A DNA stretch of 64,000 bases. It comes from Tetramitus jugosus. Lineage: Eukaryota > Heterolobosea > Eutetramitea > Acrasida > Vahlkampfiidae. The translations under genes were made by a program, and so were the position numbers. This document shows, piece by piece, positions 17,420 through 23,670 of this stretch (position 1 is the stretch's first letter; each line of letters opens with the position of its first letter). The DNA lies in the NCBI GenBank assembly GCA_937625935.1, contig OW569381.1, positions 372,001 through 436,000 on the forward strand, read 5' to 3'. The notes under the pieces are model-generated. The model was not told where the DNA came from and did no database searches. It saw only the letters and a list, made by a program, of their open reading frames with translations.

Positions 17420-17833
17420 TCATTGTCTCTCTATCTTTGTCGTCGTCATCATCATTATCATCATCATCCTTCTCACACGCAAGCTTGTGTGTGCTTGTGT
17501 ATGTGACTGTGTGTTGTGGTGGTGATGATGACAATGACGCTTAAAATATGACTTGCAAACGGCCAAACAGTGTGAGTACAAATTATCCATATAAGACCTT
17601 ATTGTTGATAGATTATTGACTATCGAAGATCGAAAATCCCGACACGTCAATACCAAATTCAACACATCTTCTACACCAAGGAACGAACCAACTAGATACA
17701 CAAATAAATCAATATGTATATCGGTTATTCTTACTTTTCTTTTGACTCCAAACTTTACCAATTGTTGGTGTTGGTTATGTCTTCTTTTGGCGCCTTTTCC
17801 TTGTTTTCCCATTTGTTCATTGATTTTTTTCAT
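17420..17833 (-). CDS. short F-box-like protein or fragment
   Basis: From the ATG at 17833 the frame has a basic start (GKQGKGAKRRHNQHQQ) and then an F-box-like helix set, IDLFVYLVGSFLGVEDVLNL followed by VLTCRDFRSSI, around residues 40-80. F-box proteins recruit substrates to SCF ubiquitin ligases through such a domain. After residue 100 the sequence degenerates into His, Met and Thr runs from simple repeats, so the normal substrate-binding domain is missing: either a truncated gene or a missed splice site. Its start faces the VPS35 fragment at a short distance, which further suggests rearranged DNA here. Confidence 0.45.
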   Translation of the reverse strand: MKKINEQMGKQGKGAKRRHNQHQQLVKFGVKRKVRITDIHIDLFVYLVGSFLGVEDVLNLVLTCRDFRSSIVNNLSTIRSYMDNLYSHCLAVCKSYFKRHCHHHHHNTQSHTQAHTSLRVRRMMMIMMMTTTKIERQ

Positions 17834-17999
17834 CAAAAAAAACTTGCAAAAAACAGAAAACAAACACTCTGAAGGACATCGTGAATGCGAGTGACCTGAT
17901 GATGAGTGTGAGTTTTCTGACGTTTGTCAAATTCTGTCCTATTGATACCATTAGAGAGGTGTTGAATTGTCCGATAACTTGAGTATTCAGATCTCATTG

Positions 18000-18602
18000 A
18001 TGACACTTGCTCTTCAAACATATCCTGATAACACTGACTATGTCAACAAGATTATTAATAACATTGCTAGTCAATTGAATAGCACTGCACTTGCTTCAGA
18101 TGAAATTGTAGACATGTCGAAGCGATTGTTGTTGGTGCCACTCGAGTCATACAACAATGTGCTAACAGTTTTGAAGTTGGAGAAGTATGGTGATATTATT
18201 CATTCTCTTGGATATGAACAGAGAAAGTTTATTGCACTGAGCATTGTGAGATGCGCACTTGACAATGGACACAAGATTTCAACATTTGAACAAGTGAACA
18301 AACTGTTTGATTTGATTCGTCCACTGTTGAAGGATGAGGAAGACCAAACAACATTCTCACCTTCTGACGACTCACCAATAGCTGCAACATTGCTCGAAGA
18401 TTTCGAAGAAGAACAGAACTTGATTGCCAGATTGGTTCATTTGTTTGATAATAGCGATACTGATCAATTGTTTAAAGTTTTGGCCGCAGCCAGAAAGCAC
18501 TTTGGTCAGGGTGGTGCCAAGAGAATTCAATACACATTGGTACCGCTTGTATTCTCCTACTTGAAACTTGCTCAGAGAATCTACAATGCACACTGCAAAT
18601 AG
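18000..18602 (+). pseudogene. partial VPS35 (retromer subunit) gene
   Basis: The encoded 200 residues match the middle to lower part of VPS35, the alpha-solenoid scaffold of the retromer that recycles endosomal cargo: LQTYPDNTDYVNKI, LVPLESYNNVLTVLKLEKY, EEEQNLIARLVHLFDNSD and AARKHFGQGGAKRIQYTL are family signatures. A full VPS35 has about 800 residues; some 470 upstream and about 100 at the C-terminus are missing. The frame is open a little upstream from 17967 but no ATG occurs before 18000, and an in-frame TAG lies at 17955-17957. Just upstream another frame reads SVSFLTFVKFCPIDTIREVL, which could be the frameshifted continuation. Most likely a truncated duplicate next to the Fanzor element; a split gene with distant exons is less likely. 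Confidence 0.75.
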
Positions 18603-18958
18603 ACACCTCTTGTCGACTCTCCATCTTTTTTGATTGATTTGGTTGTTGTTGTTGTTGTTGATGTTCGTTGTGCGACTTGTGTTTTTCGTTGTTGTTGTTG
18701 TCGTGTCAGAGAGAAAGTTTTTCGTTGTCTTTCGTTTGGTTCAAGATTGGATAGATAGGTGGATATATTATAAAAAAATACAATAAATGTTGTATCAGTT
18801 TCCTCTAAGCTGCGGAATTGGTGCAGTTGTAAAAATTTCCGTTGAGACTGTCTTTACAACGACAACGGCCATCTACCTCGGTTTAAAAAGCGCTGTCTTT
18901 TTCGCTGTTTGATTCAACTCACACAACAAATACAACACACAACAAATACAATAACATT
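18603..18958 (+). promoter_or_regulatory. 5' flank and leader of the Fanzor gene
   Basis: The first part is GTTGTT-rich spacer. The last 45 bases carry a 14-base sequence, CACAACAAATACAA, twice in tandem directly before the ATG, the same A/C-rich leader style as host genes (compare 16540-16578). This suggests the Fanzor gene is transcribed with host-type signals. I looked for a terminal inverted repeat shared with 20873-21110 and saw none. Confidence 0.4.
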
Positions 18959-20872
18959 ATGCCACGAGGCGTGCCTAAGGACGGCAAGAGAAAGAGAAAG
19001 AGAGAGACTGTCAAAAAGAATGAATACTCATCACATTACGTGGTCAAGGTCGGTCTGAAGTCTCTGTTGTTGCATCATCCAACTCTGTTACCAATCATAC
19101 AGACTCAAGCTCTGGAGATTACAAGGATTGCTCTTCGACTCACAAGATTTATAAACATATTCGTTTTGAGGCACTTGGAGTCTGACTATCAAATCCCTTT
19201 ATTAGATCAAGTGTTTCTTCAAAGATTAGGTTCTGTGTTGTTTGGACGCAATTCAAAACCAAGAGACAATAACTTAAGTCTCATCAACGAGTCTGTCAAC
19301 ATGGACGATGTAGTAGTCAAACTCAGAAAGATTTATCAGAGTTTTGCCACGTCCATCAATTATGTTGCCAGGTCTCTCAATGTCAACATCTCCAACATGC
19401 TCAAGTTCACATTGGAACCAAGACTGAGGAAGTATCTGAGGGTCAGAATGAATCAACTACACAGTGACTCATCTATTCCAAAGTCAGAACAAAGAAGGGT
19501 TGTTGAATACATTATCAGAAGGTTGACATTTAGCACTCCTGTCCACGATTTTATCAAATTGCCTCCAAAAGAGTTGATAGAGACGATTCCTGTGTTGATC
19601 CGAGAGGTTCGAACACTTGTTGATGCTAAAACTGATGAAGTAATTGATGAATCATTTGTGAAGAACAACACCAATAACATGCTGAAGTTTTACTGGCATG
19701 TTCAACAATTTCTGATCAACAATGATATGAAATCGTTTGCACTACTTCCTTTGTCTCATTTCAAGTGCAGGTGTATGGAGATTGGCACAAAGGAATTAGT
19801 TGATATGCTTAAACAGAAGAAACAAGGAAGACAAAAGAAGGGCGAGGAGTCAACTGAATTGAAGTGTAATCTCAAGTGTTTGAATGTTGGAACAAAGAAG
19901 ATTCAAATCGACTCTATCAGAACTGACGGTATTCAAGCCTCTGTTGTTCTCAGACATCAACTCGTTGGCAATCACAAGAACAATAAGGCAAAGGAATCCA
20001 AGGGCCAGAAAGAAGCAAAGAAGAGAAAGAAAGAAAAAAGTATGAACGAAGGTGCTGAATATTTGGTTGGGATTGACCCGGGTATTGTTACGTTGGTGAG
20101 TTGTGCAGATTCAGATGGCAAGAAGTGGGAGTTGTCTAACAAAACATATAGACATCTGTCCCACCATTCAAAAAACTCCAAGCGATTGTTGAAATACAAA
20201 GCAGAATGGAACGAAATGAATGAGAAGAACTTGGATGAACTCCAAAACTCAATCAAACAGGCCGGTGTACCAACAAGTGGTCTGTTCCTTGAACACATCA
20301 ATTCTGTATTGAAAGTCGAGGACGATTTGTTGAATTTTTATTGCACCCCAAAGGTGAAGAGACTGAATTGGGATAGCTATATAATGAGAGATAAGACGAT
20401 TGCCAATGTTATGAATGACTTTCGAAAGAGAGCAAATGGAAGAAGCATGTTAATTGGGATGGGCAATGCTGGTTTTGGTCATTGTTACAAAGGACATGCT
20501 CCAACACCAAAAGGAAAGCTATTGAAAAAGTTGAATGAGCACTTCAAAGTGAAAATGATCGACGAGTTCATGACAAGTCAGAAATGTCATCATTGCCATT
20601 CTCACATGAAGCCAGTCAAGCATAAGAGAATAGACAAGAATGGAACGTTGAATGTCTCTGTCGTCCGAGGAGTTAAACAGTGTGCAACCACTAAATGTTT
20701 AGTGACTCACAACAGAGACATCAATGCGGCCAAGAACATGCTCCATCTACTGAGAACAGAAATGGATGGACAGTCACGTCCCGATGCCTTCAAGAGGAAG
20801 AAAAAGGTCGCAAAAGAATTAATCAAAATGGTGGAACACCTCCAAGGCTCACTCCATCAAGCTGCTATGTAA
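18959..20872 (+). CDS. Fanzor: eukaryotic TnpB-like RNA-guided nuclease, 637 aa
   Basis: The protein ends in a RuvC nuclease with a zinc ribbon, the core shared by TnpB, Cas12 and Fanzor. RuvC-I is LVGIDPGIVTLVSC with Asp373. RuvC-II lies in FKVKMIDEFMTSQKCHHC, where Glu536 sits in the position characteristic of Fanzors. RuvC-III is THNRDINAAKNML with Asp587. The zinc ribbon is C543/C546 and C575/C580. All catalytic and zinc residues are present, there is no internal stop and no intron. The helical N-terminal half (for example ALEITRIALRLTRFINIF) fits the REC/WED part. Basic stretches KRKRKRE (10-16) and KKRKKEK (354-360) could be nuclear localisation signals. Fanzors are known to cut DNA guided by an RNA (omega RNA) encoded near the 3' end of their gene; that this copy is active is inference. 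No IS607-type recombinase is in the window. Confidence 0.93.
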   Translation: MPRGVPKDGKRKRKRETVKKNEYSSHYVVKVGLKSLLLHHPTLLPIIQTQALEITRIALRLTRFINIFVLRHLESDYQIPLLDQVFLQRLGSVLFGRNSKPRDNNLSLINESVNMDDVVVKLRKIYQSFATSINYVARSLNVNISNMLKFTLEPRLRKYLRVRMNQLHSDSSIPKSEQRRVVEYIIRRLTFSTPVHDFIKLPPKELIETIPVLIREVRTLVDAKTDEVIDESFVKNNTNNMLKFYWHVQQFLINNDMKSFALLPLSHFKCRCMEIGTKELVDMLKQKKQGRQKKGEESTELKCNLKCLNVGTKKIQIDSIRTDGIQASVVLRHQLVGNHKNNKAKESKGQKEAKKRKKEKSMNEGAEYLVGIDPGIVTLVSCADSDGKKWELSNKTYRHLSHHSKNSKRLLKYKAEWNEMNEKNLDELQNSIKQAGVPTSGLFLEHINSVLKVEDDLLNFYCTPKVKRLNWDSYIMRDKTIANVMNDFRKRANGRSMLIGMGNAGFGHCYKGHAPTPKGKLLKKLNEHFKVKMIDEFMTSQKCHHCHSHMKPVKHKRIDKNGTLNVSVVRGVKQCATTKCLVTHNRDINAAKNMLHLLRTEMDGQSRPDAFKRKKKVAKELIKMVEHLQGSLHQAAM

Positions 20873-20873
20873 G

Positions 20874-21032
20874 TCCCGATTATGTAGGAGCGTTAAGGTG
20901 TCTTCTCGGGAAATCATAATTTTTTTATTATGGGTTTTATTTCACCGAACTACATCCTTAAACACATCGCCTTACAATTAAATCAAATCTACCAAATCTA
21001 CTTTTTCATGACATGCAACAATGAATTGCATG
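20874..21032 (+). ncRNA. candidate omega RNA region: three inverted repeats after the Fanzor stop
   Basis: Starting two bases after the stop, TCCCGA (20874-20879) pairs with TCGGGA (20906-20911); then CATAAT (20915-20920) pairs with ATTATG (20927-20932) around six T; then CATGCAA (21012-21018) pairs with TTGCATG (21026-21032). All stems are perfect. In TnpB and Fanzor elements the guide RNA comes from this side, often overlapping the end of the nuclease gene, and its 3' segment matches flanking DNA. Whether these repeats belong to such an RNA or only to a 3' untranslated region is not shown; boundaries are a guess. Confidence 0.35.
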
Positions 21033-21144: not shown

Positions 21145-23670
21145 TTATTGTGCAGAAGCTACACCAGAGGTGGCAGCAGGTGCAGCTGGTGATGGTGTGA
21201 ATTGAATGTCCTCTGTTGGCTTTCTCTCCAATTTGCCACCCTTGAGCAGTAGTTGAACCTCTGATCCCGTCAATGTCTCGTACTCCATCAACGAGTCTGC
21301 AATGTGCTTCAATTGAACCTTGTTGGTCGTTAAATCCTTCATTGTTCTCTCATAGTTGTCTTGCAAAATTCTTCTCACTTCCAAATCGATTTCTCTCTTG
21401 GTCTCTGGACTGCAATTGTCTCTGTGTTCCTTGACTCTGAATGTGCCTAGACCCAAACTGCTCATACCATAGGCCTCTACCATGCTGCGAGCAATGTCTG
21501 TGGCTCTCTCTAGATCGTTGCTTGCACCAGATGTTACATTGTCCTTTCCAAAGACGAGTTCTTCAGCGACGACACCACCCAACAACACTGCAATCTTGGC
21601 TTCCATTTCAGCCTTTGTGATGGAAACAGTGTCCTTTCGCTTCAGACTTGCAGCAAAACCGAGAGCTTGACCCCGAGGAAGAACAGTGAGCTTGTGCAAT
21701 TCAGATTCCTTGTCTCTGAGCAGTGTCATGAGTGCGTGACCCGTCTCGTGAACTGCAGTCACATATCGATCCTTGGCATCGACGAGATTTCTTCTCTCGA
21801 GACCCATGAGAACACGATCAAATGCATGATCGAGATCAGCATTGGTCAATTGTTCGTGCTTGAGCTTACTGGCACGAATACTGGCCGTGTTGACAAGATT
21901 CTCCAACTCGGCTCCACTGAAACCAACTGTGCGCGATGCAACTCTCTGAATGTCCAAATCGGTCGACACTGGAATGTTGTTCAAGTACAGGTTCAAGATA
22001 TCGACTCTGCCGTGCATGTTGGGCAGTGGGACATGAATCTTCTTATCGAAACGACCTGGTCTAGTCATGGCAGGATCGAGCACCTCCAAGAAATTGGTTG
22101 CACCAATCACTATAATACCATCTGTTGTGTTAAATCCGTCCAACTCACTCAAAAACTGATTGATTGTCTGTCTGTGATAATTCTCTGATGATACACCTCT
22201 CTTGCCACCGAGTGCATCAATCTCATCAATGAAAATGATGGCAGGTGCGTGTTTCTTGGCTGCTTCAAACAGTGAAATGATACGCTTGGCACCCAATCCG
22301 ACCAACATTCCATCAAATTCAGCTCCCGAGGCATAAAAGAAGGGCACACCGGCCTCACCTGCAATCGCCTTTGCGATCAGAGTCTATACATGGTCACAAA
22401 TACATGAGTGAGTGAGTGAGTGTGGTTAGTTAGTATTGCATGATGATGTGAGAGAATGAAAAACGAAAAACAGCTGAAGTTCAATTGAGAATAGGACAAA
22501 ACAAACCTTTCCAGTACCCGGAGGTCCACTCAATAAAACACCGCGAGGTAATTTTCCACCGAGTCGGGCAAATTCCTGCGGATTTTTGAGGAATTCGACA
22601 ATTTCCATAACTTCGTCCTTGCATTCGTCAATGCCCTTGACATCATCAAACGTCTTCTTGGTGTTGACAATGGGTGTGAACTGTGGTGTGAGACCATTGA
22701 GCAATGTTGATGTGCCACCATCGGAGAATGGCTTGAACATTTTGAGCAGCACGTAAATGATGGCAATGATGAGCACTGTTTTTCCAATACTGGCTGCAAA
22801 GCCCTTGGATGGCATCATTCGACGGAAGAAGCCACTGTTGGCACCACTGCCACCCTCACCTTCACCATAATATCTCTGTTGTTGTTGTTGATTTGCAAAT
22901 GATGATGATGATGATTGTTGTGTGGATCGCAACAACTCTGCAAACAGTGCTTGATTGTTCAATAGAGCTTTGAGTGCTCTGTCTGATGTTTCATTGCTCA
23001 GTCCACTACTACTACCACTGCTACTACCACTACCGCCTGCTCGATGTTGTTGTTGACTGGTAAAGGTAGATGATGATGAAGGTCGATTGTATCGAGATGA
23101 AGAAGAAGCATTGTGATGTGGATCCAACATGTGTCTCGTTGCTCCCAAAACAGCCTATGATTATCATCATGATATTGATGATGACGATGAGTACAAAATG
23201 AAGAAAACACAATTGATTTGTTAATAAAAATTGCATCAAAAAAGAGTCCACACAATTCAAGTCGATCCTATCTAGATCTCTATCTCAATCTATATACATA
23301 CTTGAGCATACTCAAAATCAACTTGTCTGTTTCTGGCATATTGTTGACTGTCATATCTTCTAATGACTTCATCAAACTGACCTGTCTCATTCAATTTATG
23401 CATGTACAGTGCCTGTGCATCTGCATTGTTGGGATCTTCCTCTGCATGTGACTCTAGGCGATCGAGTTGAGCACTGCGATAGTATGCAAGCTTATTCGAT
23501 GATGTAGTTGAGAAGTGTCTCATGGCTGTGTTGTGATGTTGATTGATACATGACGGAGATCCAACATGGTGAAGGAGTGAAGAGAGAGCAGAAGTAAAGG
23601 CAGACTGATTGATTGAAAGTCTGTTGTGAGTGGAGCTGTTGATGGGTAGATGTTTGATAATTTTTTTCAT
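21145..23670 (-). CDS. YME1: mitochondrial i-AAA protease, FtsH/Yme1 family, 751 aa
   Basis: Three exons: 23302-23670, 22507-23154 and 21145-22383, joined by introns of 147 and 123 bp (donors GTATGT and GTTTGT). The product has a basic, Ser-rich N-terminus suited to mitochondrial import, a helical TPR-like stretch, a Gln/Ser-rich linker, one membrane helix ([16 protein letters not shown]), then the AAA module: Walker A GPPGTGKT (K339/T340 span the exon 2-3 junction), Walker B IIFIDEID (392-393), RPGRFD second region of homology, and the metalloprotease site HETGH at 551-555. One membrane segment and [13 protein letters not shown] place it with Yme1/i-AAA, which degrades proteins of the inner membrane facing the intermembrane space, rather than the two-helix m-AAA type. 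The ATG at 23670 is the only one in the first exon upstream of the conserved part. Confidence 0.92.

Follow-up and report, generated by a model that had tools for sequence, protein, structure and literature searches.

Junction duplications at left-truncated copies of a TTAA-flanked Fanzor1 element in Tetramitus jugosus: possible scars of RNA-guided cutting at empty alleles

The role of Fanzor proteins has been called unknown, with TnpB-like copying named as one possibility (PMC10432273). SpuFz1 from Spizellomyces punctatus has the target motif CATA and cuts the two DNA strands after bases 16/17 and 20/21; GtFz1 from Guillardia theta, a Fanzor1, has the target motif TTAAN and cuts after bases 14-17 (PMC10432273). 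The two motifs are swapped in another account (PMC11423790), and the original paper (PMC10432273) is followed here. SpuFz1 resides in an inverted-repeat element for which its authors report no transposase, and is followed past its stop codon by a noncoding RNA region of ~80 nt (PMC10432273). As a rule for Fanzor and TnpB alike, whatever follows the scaffold on its 3' side acts as the guide (PMC10432273). TnpB of the IS200/IS605 elements cuts the motif-adjacent empty site, and recombination then favors retention of the element (PMC10432273, PMC11870625); a 2025 preprint reports that, in plasmids, TnpB works as a gene drive (PMC11870625). A literature search, with most subscription papers outside its reach, found no claim of Fanzor cutting in a natural host.

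Short duplications beside Fanzor1 elements have been on record for Chlamydomonas since 2013. Bao and Jurka described duplications of ~7-19 bp, some of 44-443 bp, directly after TTTT or a similar motif (PMC3627910). Such duplications mark ~70% of CRe-1 loci versus 1/200 copies of the Fanzor-less Helitron-1N1 (PMC3627910). One-ended transposition was inferred, and the causal part of the Fanzor protein was left undecided (PMC3627910). Fanzor2 elements of Chloropicon and molluscs combine a Fanzor gene with inverted repeats and target-site duplications, and move by cut-and-paste (PMC10711439).

Tetramitus jugosus, a heterolobosean amoeboflagellate, is free-living in soil and has the assembly paTetJugo1.1 (PMC11106597). 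The window, a stretch of 64,000 nt from this species, lies on a nuclear chromosome and carries an uninterrupted reading frame of 637 codons, from ATG to TAA, at 18959-20872 on the plus strand. Its 637-aa product is predicted to be a Fanzor1-type nuclease with an RNA-guided role, from the frame itself and its matches to SpuFz1 and Pfam. SpuFz1 (PDB 8gkh) is the sole convincing match among solved structures (E 5.1e-13 with the single sequence), and a profile of 10 sequences strengthens it to E 3.3e-22 over profile positions 131-619; GtFz1 was unmatched in both the single-sequence and the profile searches of solved structures. The putative catalytic residues of the RuvC domain are Asp373 (codon 20075-20077, plus strand; motif GIDPG), Glu536 (20564-20566, plus strand; IDEFMTSQKC) and Asp587 (20717-20719, plus strand; motif NRDIN). 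A constant offset, counted by hand along the alignment, links them to D383, E541 and D606 of SpuFz1, which are listed among its metal (magnesium)-binding residues (PMC10432273). The second acid thereby occupies the Fanzor-type position. The window protein thus shares the D/E/D set of SpuFz1, unlike GtFz1, in which the third catalytic residue is Asn (PMC11423790). Four cysteines (C543, C546, C575 and C580) form a predicted zinc ribbon at 20585-20698 on the plus strand, within the TNB zinc-ribbon domain PF07282 (E 7.2e-10; 39.3 bits against a cut-off of 26.3).

These results agree with the earlier note, which had placed the 637-codon gene, the RuvC residues and the four cysteines exactly where they are found, had assigned Glu536 to the Fanzor-type position, had considered the active site retained and had set the gene in a protist nuclear genome. 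Its identification of a Fanzor is borne out by the SpuFz1 profile match, and the profile search that it proposed returned PF07282 above cut-off and the TnpB model NF040570 at 29.6 bits, well under its cut-off of 100. Sequence comparison accordingly places the kinship of the protein with Fanzor1 over TnpB in general. The AlphaFold prediction (mean pLDDT 46.2, pTM 0.32) fell short of the quality needed for a fold search and, as a model, lends no support to the explanation preferred below. A protein search that scored 7998 candidates yielded five relatives: P0002-P0005 at 59-75% identity, and P0006, a 360-aa piece, at 96%. No Fanzor relative in viral contigs was upheld by tblastn. The frame almost certainly encodes a Fanzor1 member, with fold and activity predicted from its sequence.

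The protein matches 65 stretches of its own genome (26,348,746 bases in 56 contigs), some loci yielding several. Residues 1-637 are covered in 20 of these matches, 17 at 80-100% identity and three at 65%, and 19 of the 20 are free of stops. Many genomic copies are likewise a feature of SpuFz1. Twenty copies were compared with their flanks (L009-L028), and the 17 with a frame of more than 600 aa were used further, those of L022, L027 and L028 being shorter. All four motif patterns are kept in 16 of the 17; the other, L015, has VDPG instead of IDPG and retains the Asp. Across 103 copy pairs with dS above 0.1, dN/dS is 0.15-0.21 (median 0.175), a range that indicates purifying selection on the protein. 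A chance reading frame is excluded because of the PF07282 and SpuFz1 matches, the 65 genomic matches and this dN/dS range.

The copies L009-L028 are mosaics. The ends of the Fanzor module, as delimited below, are mostly 95-100% identical across element types, and the middle of the reading frame falls to 60-80% identity with switch points that vary between pairs. In the last 100 nt of the module, type B differs from the other types. Homogenization of the 3' end only was considered and dropped, the 5' leader being equally conserved and the middle of the frame mosaic. Degraded Fanzor fragments of 45-65% identity also lie at C38:436819-437374, ~0.8 kb past the right end of the window.

The Fanzor gene sits in a eukaryotic transposable element with a TTAA target and terminal inverted repeats. 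Comparison of copies defines three types of ends: type A (TTAAGGTGGCGGTCTAC left, GTAGACCGCCACCTTAA right), type B (TTAAGGATGTAGTTCG left, CGAACTACATCCTTAA right) and type C (TTAAGGTGGCCGTCCACTG left, CAGTGGACCGCCACCTTAA right). With positions paired by hand, 19 elements have both ends, 12 of them with TTAAGGTGG ends and seven with TTAAGGATG ends; they measure 2.2 to 4.6 kb, some with inner deletions. One of the 19, C32:2808-4989, represents a distant family with 42-44% protein identity. The window holds a type B element at 17549-20961 on the plus strand, which aligns with L010 over 3416 bp at 99.3% identity. L010 is a complete reference copy whose left end reads TTAAGGATGTAGTTCG, and the window copy starts at its position 272, so that the first 271 bp, including the left terminal repeat, are missing. 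The right terminal repeat, which includes the TTAA target site, lies at 20946-20961 and reads TTAAGGATGTAGTTCG on the minus strand. A host TTAA stands at 17541-17544 (plus strand), 4 bp left of the left junction. The Fanzor module, made up of 5' leader, reading frame and 3' end, is common to types A, B and C; it spans 18795-20961 on the plus strand and begins similarly in each of the 20 copies. The leader ahead of the ATG, which the earlier note had taken for host-style and for a sign of expression, is therefore the element's own, and that argument for expression fails. The same note had called the Fanzor intact: the gene is, and the element around it has lost its left end.

The architecture recalls several described systems without coinciding with any of them. 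Inverted repeats are shared with the SpuFz1 element, whereas GtFz1 loci seem to be without them (PMC10432273). The insertion site TTAA equals the TTAAN motif of GtFz1 (PMC10432273); unlike SpuFz1 with its CATA motif, the window protein is predicted to use TTAA, and its element family is further set apart from SpuFz1 by the VPS35 cargo and the scarred truncated copies described below. The Chloropicon and mollusc elements share the combination of Fanzor gene, inverted repeats and target-site duplications, but are Fanzor2 elements with unrelated repeats, and comparable scars are not described in the available text (PMC10711439). TnpB, in turn, is bacterial and accompanied by TnpA, whereas the present element belongs to a eukaryote, has inverted repeats and duplicates its target site.

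As in the study of SpuFz1, no transposase came to light inside the element. Reading frames of at least 90 aa in L010, L014, L017 and L024 comprise Fanzor, VPS35 pieces, antisense frames and five others, and a Pfam search of these five returned no transposase and nothing above cut-off. Elsewhere in the genome, the piggyBac domain PF13843 is matched at 12 places, some in open frames of more than 580 aa. All 12 are more than 30 kb away from any exact TTAAGGTGGC or TTAAGGATGTAG element-end site; transposases of this type may or may not mobilize the Fanzor elements. Type C elements carry a minus-strand frame of ~250 aa (L024:1312-2073 and L025), shorter in L014, L015, L023 and L027, whose end is weakly chromodomain-like (Pfam Chromo E 0.71, HP1 E 0.16; far below significance). 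In the window, a 147-codon reverse frame at 17420-17863 (minus strand) spans the left junction and has a weak F-box-like match below cut-off (E 0.024). An AAA/M41 (FtsH-type) protease gene at 21145-22347 (minus strand) adjoins the right side of the element; upstream of it, a frame at 22426-23148 has no Pfam match and may be the first exon of the protease.

Part of the host retromer gene VPS35 has also been captured by the window element, at 17918-18592 on the plus strand, and is 97.9% identical by blastn to the apparent native gene; the frame at 17967-18602 matches PF03635 (E 5.4e-44). The apparent native gene lies at C22:81999-84489 (within L071, C22:81900-84600). Thirty VPS35 matches, grouped by hand, form 23 loci: this gene, a distant relative at C19:127380, and 21 that adjoin Fanzor matches. 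In L012, L014 and L028, one VPS35 piece is 97.4% and a second 99.5-99.8% identical to the native gene, and the piece in L064 is 100% identical to it. Because the two pieces within one element differ in identity to the native gene, the sequences suggest that VPS35 was captured or converted more than once.

By analogy with the RNA of SpuFz1, the 3' end of the element is a candidate guide-RNA scaffold. Folding and alignment predict a hairpin at 20862-20961 (plus strand), a region likened to the noncoding RNA past the SpuFz1 stop codon; in its outer stem, TTAAGG (20892-20897) pairs with the terminal CCTTAA (20956-20961). The folding support is mixed: z-scores against shuffles are -3.25 for L017, -2.04 (126 nt) and -0.88 (96 nt) for the window and -1.58 for L024, and the minimum-energy folds of C32 and L039 lack the outer stem, C32 forming an inner hairpin from other bases. 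CGTTAAGG and CCTTAA are unchanged in all eight aligned right ends, the divergent C32 and C39 included, a constancy that for CCTTAA is partly by construction, as it served to locate the right ends. Rfam returned two weak matches, far under gathering scores. Under the Fanzor/TnpB rule, we infer that host DNA directly right of the element, 20962-20981 (plus strand) in the window, would serve as the guide.

Right-end queries led to 15 left-truncated insertion events (C27 among them) with a located left junction and right end, and left-end queries to two left-end-only loci (C12:183260 and C45:176676); the latter queries comprised types A and B without type C, so this asymmetry is not fully balanced. 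The count of 15 leaves aside L070, as the host-region duplicate of L067; C39 and L041, which retain a degraded left end; C1:680378 and C19:169566, where the sequence followed stopped short of the left end; and all Fanzor fragments with no detected right end. L067 (C47:119430-119760) and L070 (C52:91020-91220) are closely similar short remnants with similar flanks on two chromosomes; their host region was probably duplicated after insertion. All 15 left junctions were placed by hand, with the sequences already in view.

At five of the 15, TTAA and ~6-22 nt of the right flank are repeated at the left junction. These duplications, at L025, L026, L051, L052 and L059, start at TTAA and stop at the truncation point. 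Exact matches anchored at this position extend over 16, 12, 13, 12 and 15 nt, respectively, against 0-5 nt in the remaining 10 copies and at most 7 nt in 210 cross-pairings of flanks from different loci. Alignment scores of the flanks separate the same copies (L052 45, L051 38, L025 32, L059 30, L026 24) from the other nine copies scored (at most 14) and from 182 cross-pairings (at most 22). Hand counts that allow for bases shared at the joint put the duplicated length past TTAA at 12 nt for L025, 6-9 for L026, 18-20 for L051, 21-22 for L052 and 8-11 for L059. Two mismatches interrupt the duplication at L051, and a single indel that at L052. The element remnants behind these junctions range from 33 to 4013 bp. 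By eye, the joints of L026, L059 and L051 share 2-3 bases and that of L025 has a few filler bases, features resembling those left by end joining. The left junction of the window copy has TTAA and 1 nt in common with its right flank, and hence no scar.

An initial scan for copies of the right flank covered the sequence upstream of 29 right ends, with L025 left out by a filter. Candidates at L015 and L024 were rejected, the former as internal element sequence common to L015 and L024, the latter as a repeat within a host gene. A second, far match at L026 was judged to be low-complexity, and a 9-nt match at L042 was taken as chance.

The closest precedents for these junctions are the CRe-1/2/3 Fanzor1 elements of Chlamydomonas, which also have 5'-truncated copies with intact 3' ends and short duplications after the motif (PMC3627910). 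Unlike the present family, they are Helitron-type, with the motif TTTT, multi-exon genes and complete copies without duplication (PMC3627910). Because the same scar marks an unrelated TTAA element, the comparison suggests Fanzor as the common cause.

LINE products are characterized by 5' truncation and by duplications of similar size. A LINE-type enzyme that retrotransposes a Fanzor transcript could in principle generate 5'-truncated copies with target-site duplications. Such an origin is highly improbable here, since the copies show neither poly(A) nor any other tail: at the right junctions inspected, TTAA follows the transposon end, a constancy that is partly by construction because many right ends were located by their end pattern, and longer right-end queries gave no tailed copy that was noticed.

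The reading slightly favored here is that a Fanzor1 gene resides in TTAA inverted-repeat transposons and that guided cutting of empty alleles, followed by one-sided repair, leaves the scars. Because ordinary TTAA insertion duplicates TTAA alone, the extra 6-22 nt would imply an opening of the empty site on the downstream side of TTAA. Transcription of the element's 3' end would yield a structured scaffold for the guide RNA, with UUAA at its terminus and host sequence from the right flank behind it as the guide. The nuclease would then find the uninterrupted allele, which reads TTAA and the guide sequence, take TTAA as its target-adjacent motif and cut ~15-22 nt downstream. Repair off the element-bearing chromosome would copy the element into the cut, and the element would thereby be retained or pass to the homologue (homing). 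On its right, the break would match the donor without a tail, and copying would proceed leftwards from the right end. Were copying to stop early, its new end would be joined to the left half of the break, where TTAA and up to ~20 nt of target remain; the element would lack its left part, and the junction there would show a short repeat of the right flank. The model therefore predicts an excess of copies that retain the right end, in line with the 15 left-truncated events against two left-end-only loci from the queries above.

Evidence on guided cutting points in both directions, and on sequence grounds the chance that the scars are its products is about even. Scar lengths comparable with the cut distances of SpuFz1 and GtFz1, together with the TTAAN motif of GtFz1, would speak for it. 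Two duplications (18-22 nt) exceed the GtFz1 distance and fit only the farther strand of SpuFz1, two of the five scars are imperfect, and no full-length allele was seen at the five scarred loci, all of which count against it. So does the TTAA at the right end of the element, which would make filled sites cuttable too, such that self-cutting must be avoided or tolerated. Of 23 insertion sites, 22 have W before TTAA (background 54%), and the TTAA closing the element on the right is preceded by C; this difference might be a self/non-self signal, and may as well reflect a transposase preference.

A further point against guided cutting is that 10 of the 15 left-truncated copies, the one in the window among them, have no duplication, for which deeper trimming would account. 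Cut-and-paste transposons are known to leave gaps that may be repaired from one side. If the gap behind an excised element were refilled starting on the right, and the left end copied a few bases off an empty homologue before repair was aborted, truncation would arise with or without a scar. Such aborted repair fits that known outcome and would explain the 10 unscarred truncations, but it requires a second copying step that halted within ~22 nt in all five scarred cases, and it is improbable.

The Chlamydomonas duplications of 44-443 bp outrange any cut distance and thus also tell against guided cutting (PMC3627910). They are accommodated by one-ended transposition, the explanation already proposed for those elements (PMC3627910), in which a trans-acting transposase joins the right end alone to TTAA, DNA synthesis starting at the target nick copies a short run of flank and an incomplete portion of the element, and end joining completes a new insertion with a short duplication, no RNA-guided cut being necessary. 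Intact right ends and the varying length of the duplications would follow as well, and the 12 piggyBac-type matches in the same genome offer a possible source of transposase, albeit at distances of more than 30 kb from any exact element end. Yet the proposal was made for Helitrons, and a like scar is found here on inverted-repeat TTAA ends; the Fanzor-less Helitron family shows the duplication in just 1/200 copies (PMC3627910); and all five duplications in T. jugosus, a small number, are at most ~22 nt. One-ended transposition is rather unlikely, though a serious contender.

Guided cutting, as preferred above, extends to a broader proposition: that the left-truncated copies are repair scars of Fanzor cutting the empty alleles of its own host, with a TTAA motif and a cut at ~20 nt, in a homing or gene-drive process, and that the Chlamydomonas duplications arose likewise. 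The case for and against this proposition is evenly poised. The likeness to TnpB would then include the cutting of empty sites.

A Fanzor element is in itself a known kind of element, and the scars are the part of potential importance. The junction scars at five of 15 left-truncated TTAA copies are new here, similar duplications having been known from Chlamydomonas since 2013 (PMC3627910). A single genome offers 20 full-length Fanzor-family matches, defined element ends, a predicted motif and deposited reads; for the cultured amoeba T. jugosus CCAP 1588/3C, both long reads and second-haplotype contigs are deposited (PMC11106597). In Auxenochlorella, the commonest repeat is said to encode Fanzor and a phased diploid genome is available (PMC12636532), making it a possible second place to test for scars. 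If the scars are what they are proposed to be, the role of Fanzor becomes testable with existing data, and the target motif and cut position of Fanzors in general would be readable from genome sequence alone. Fanzor would then cut the empty sites of its host, a clue to the natural role of the family.
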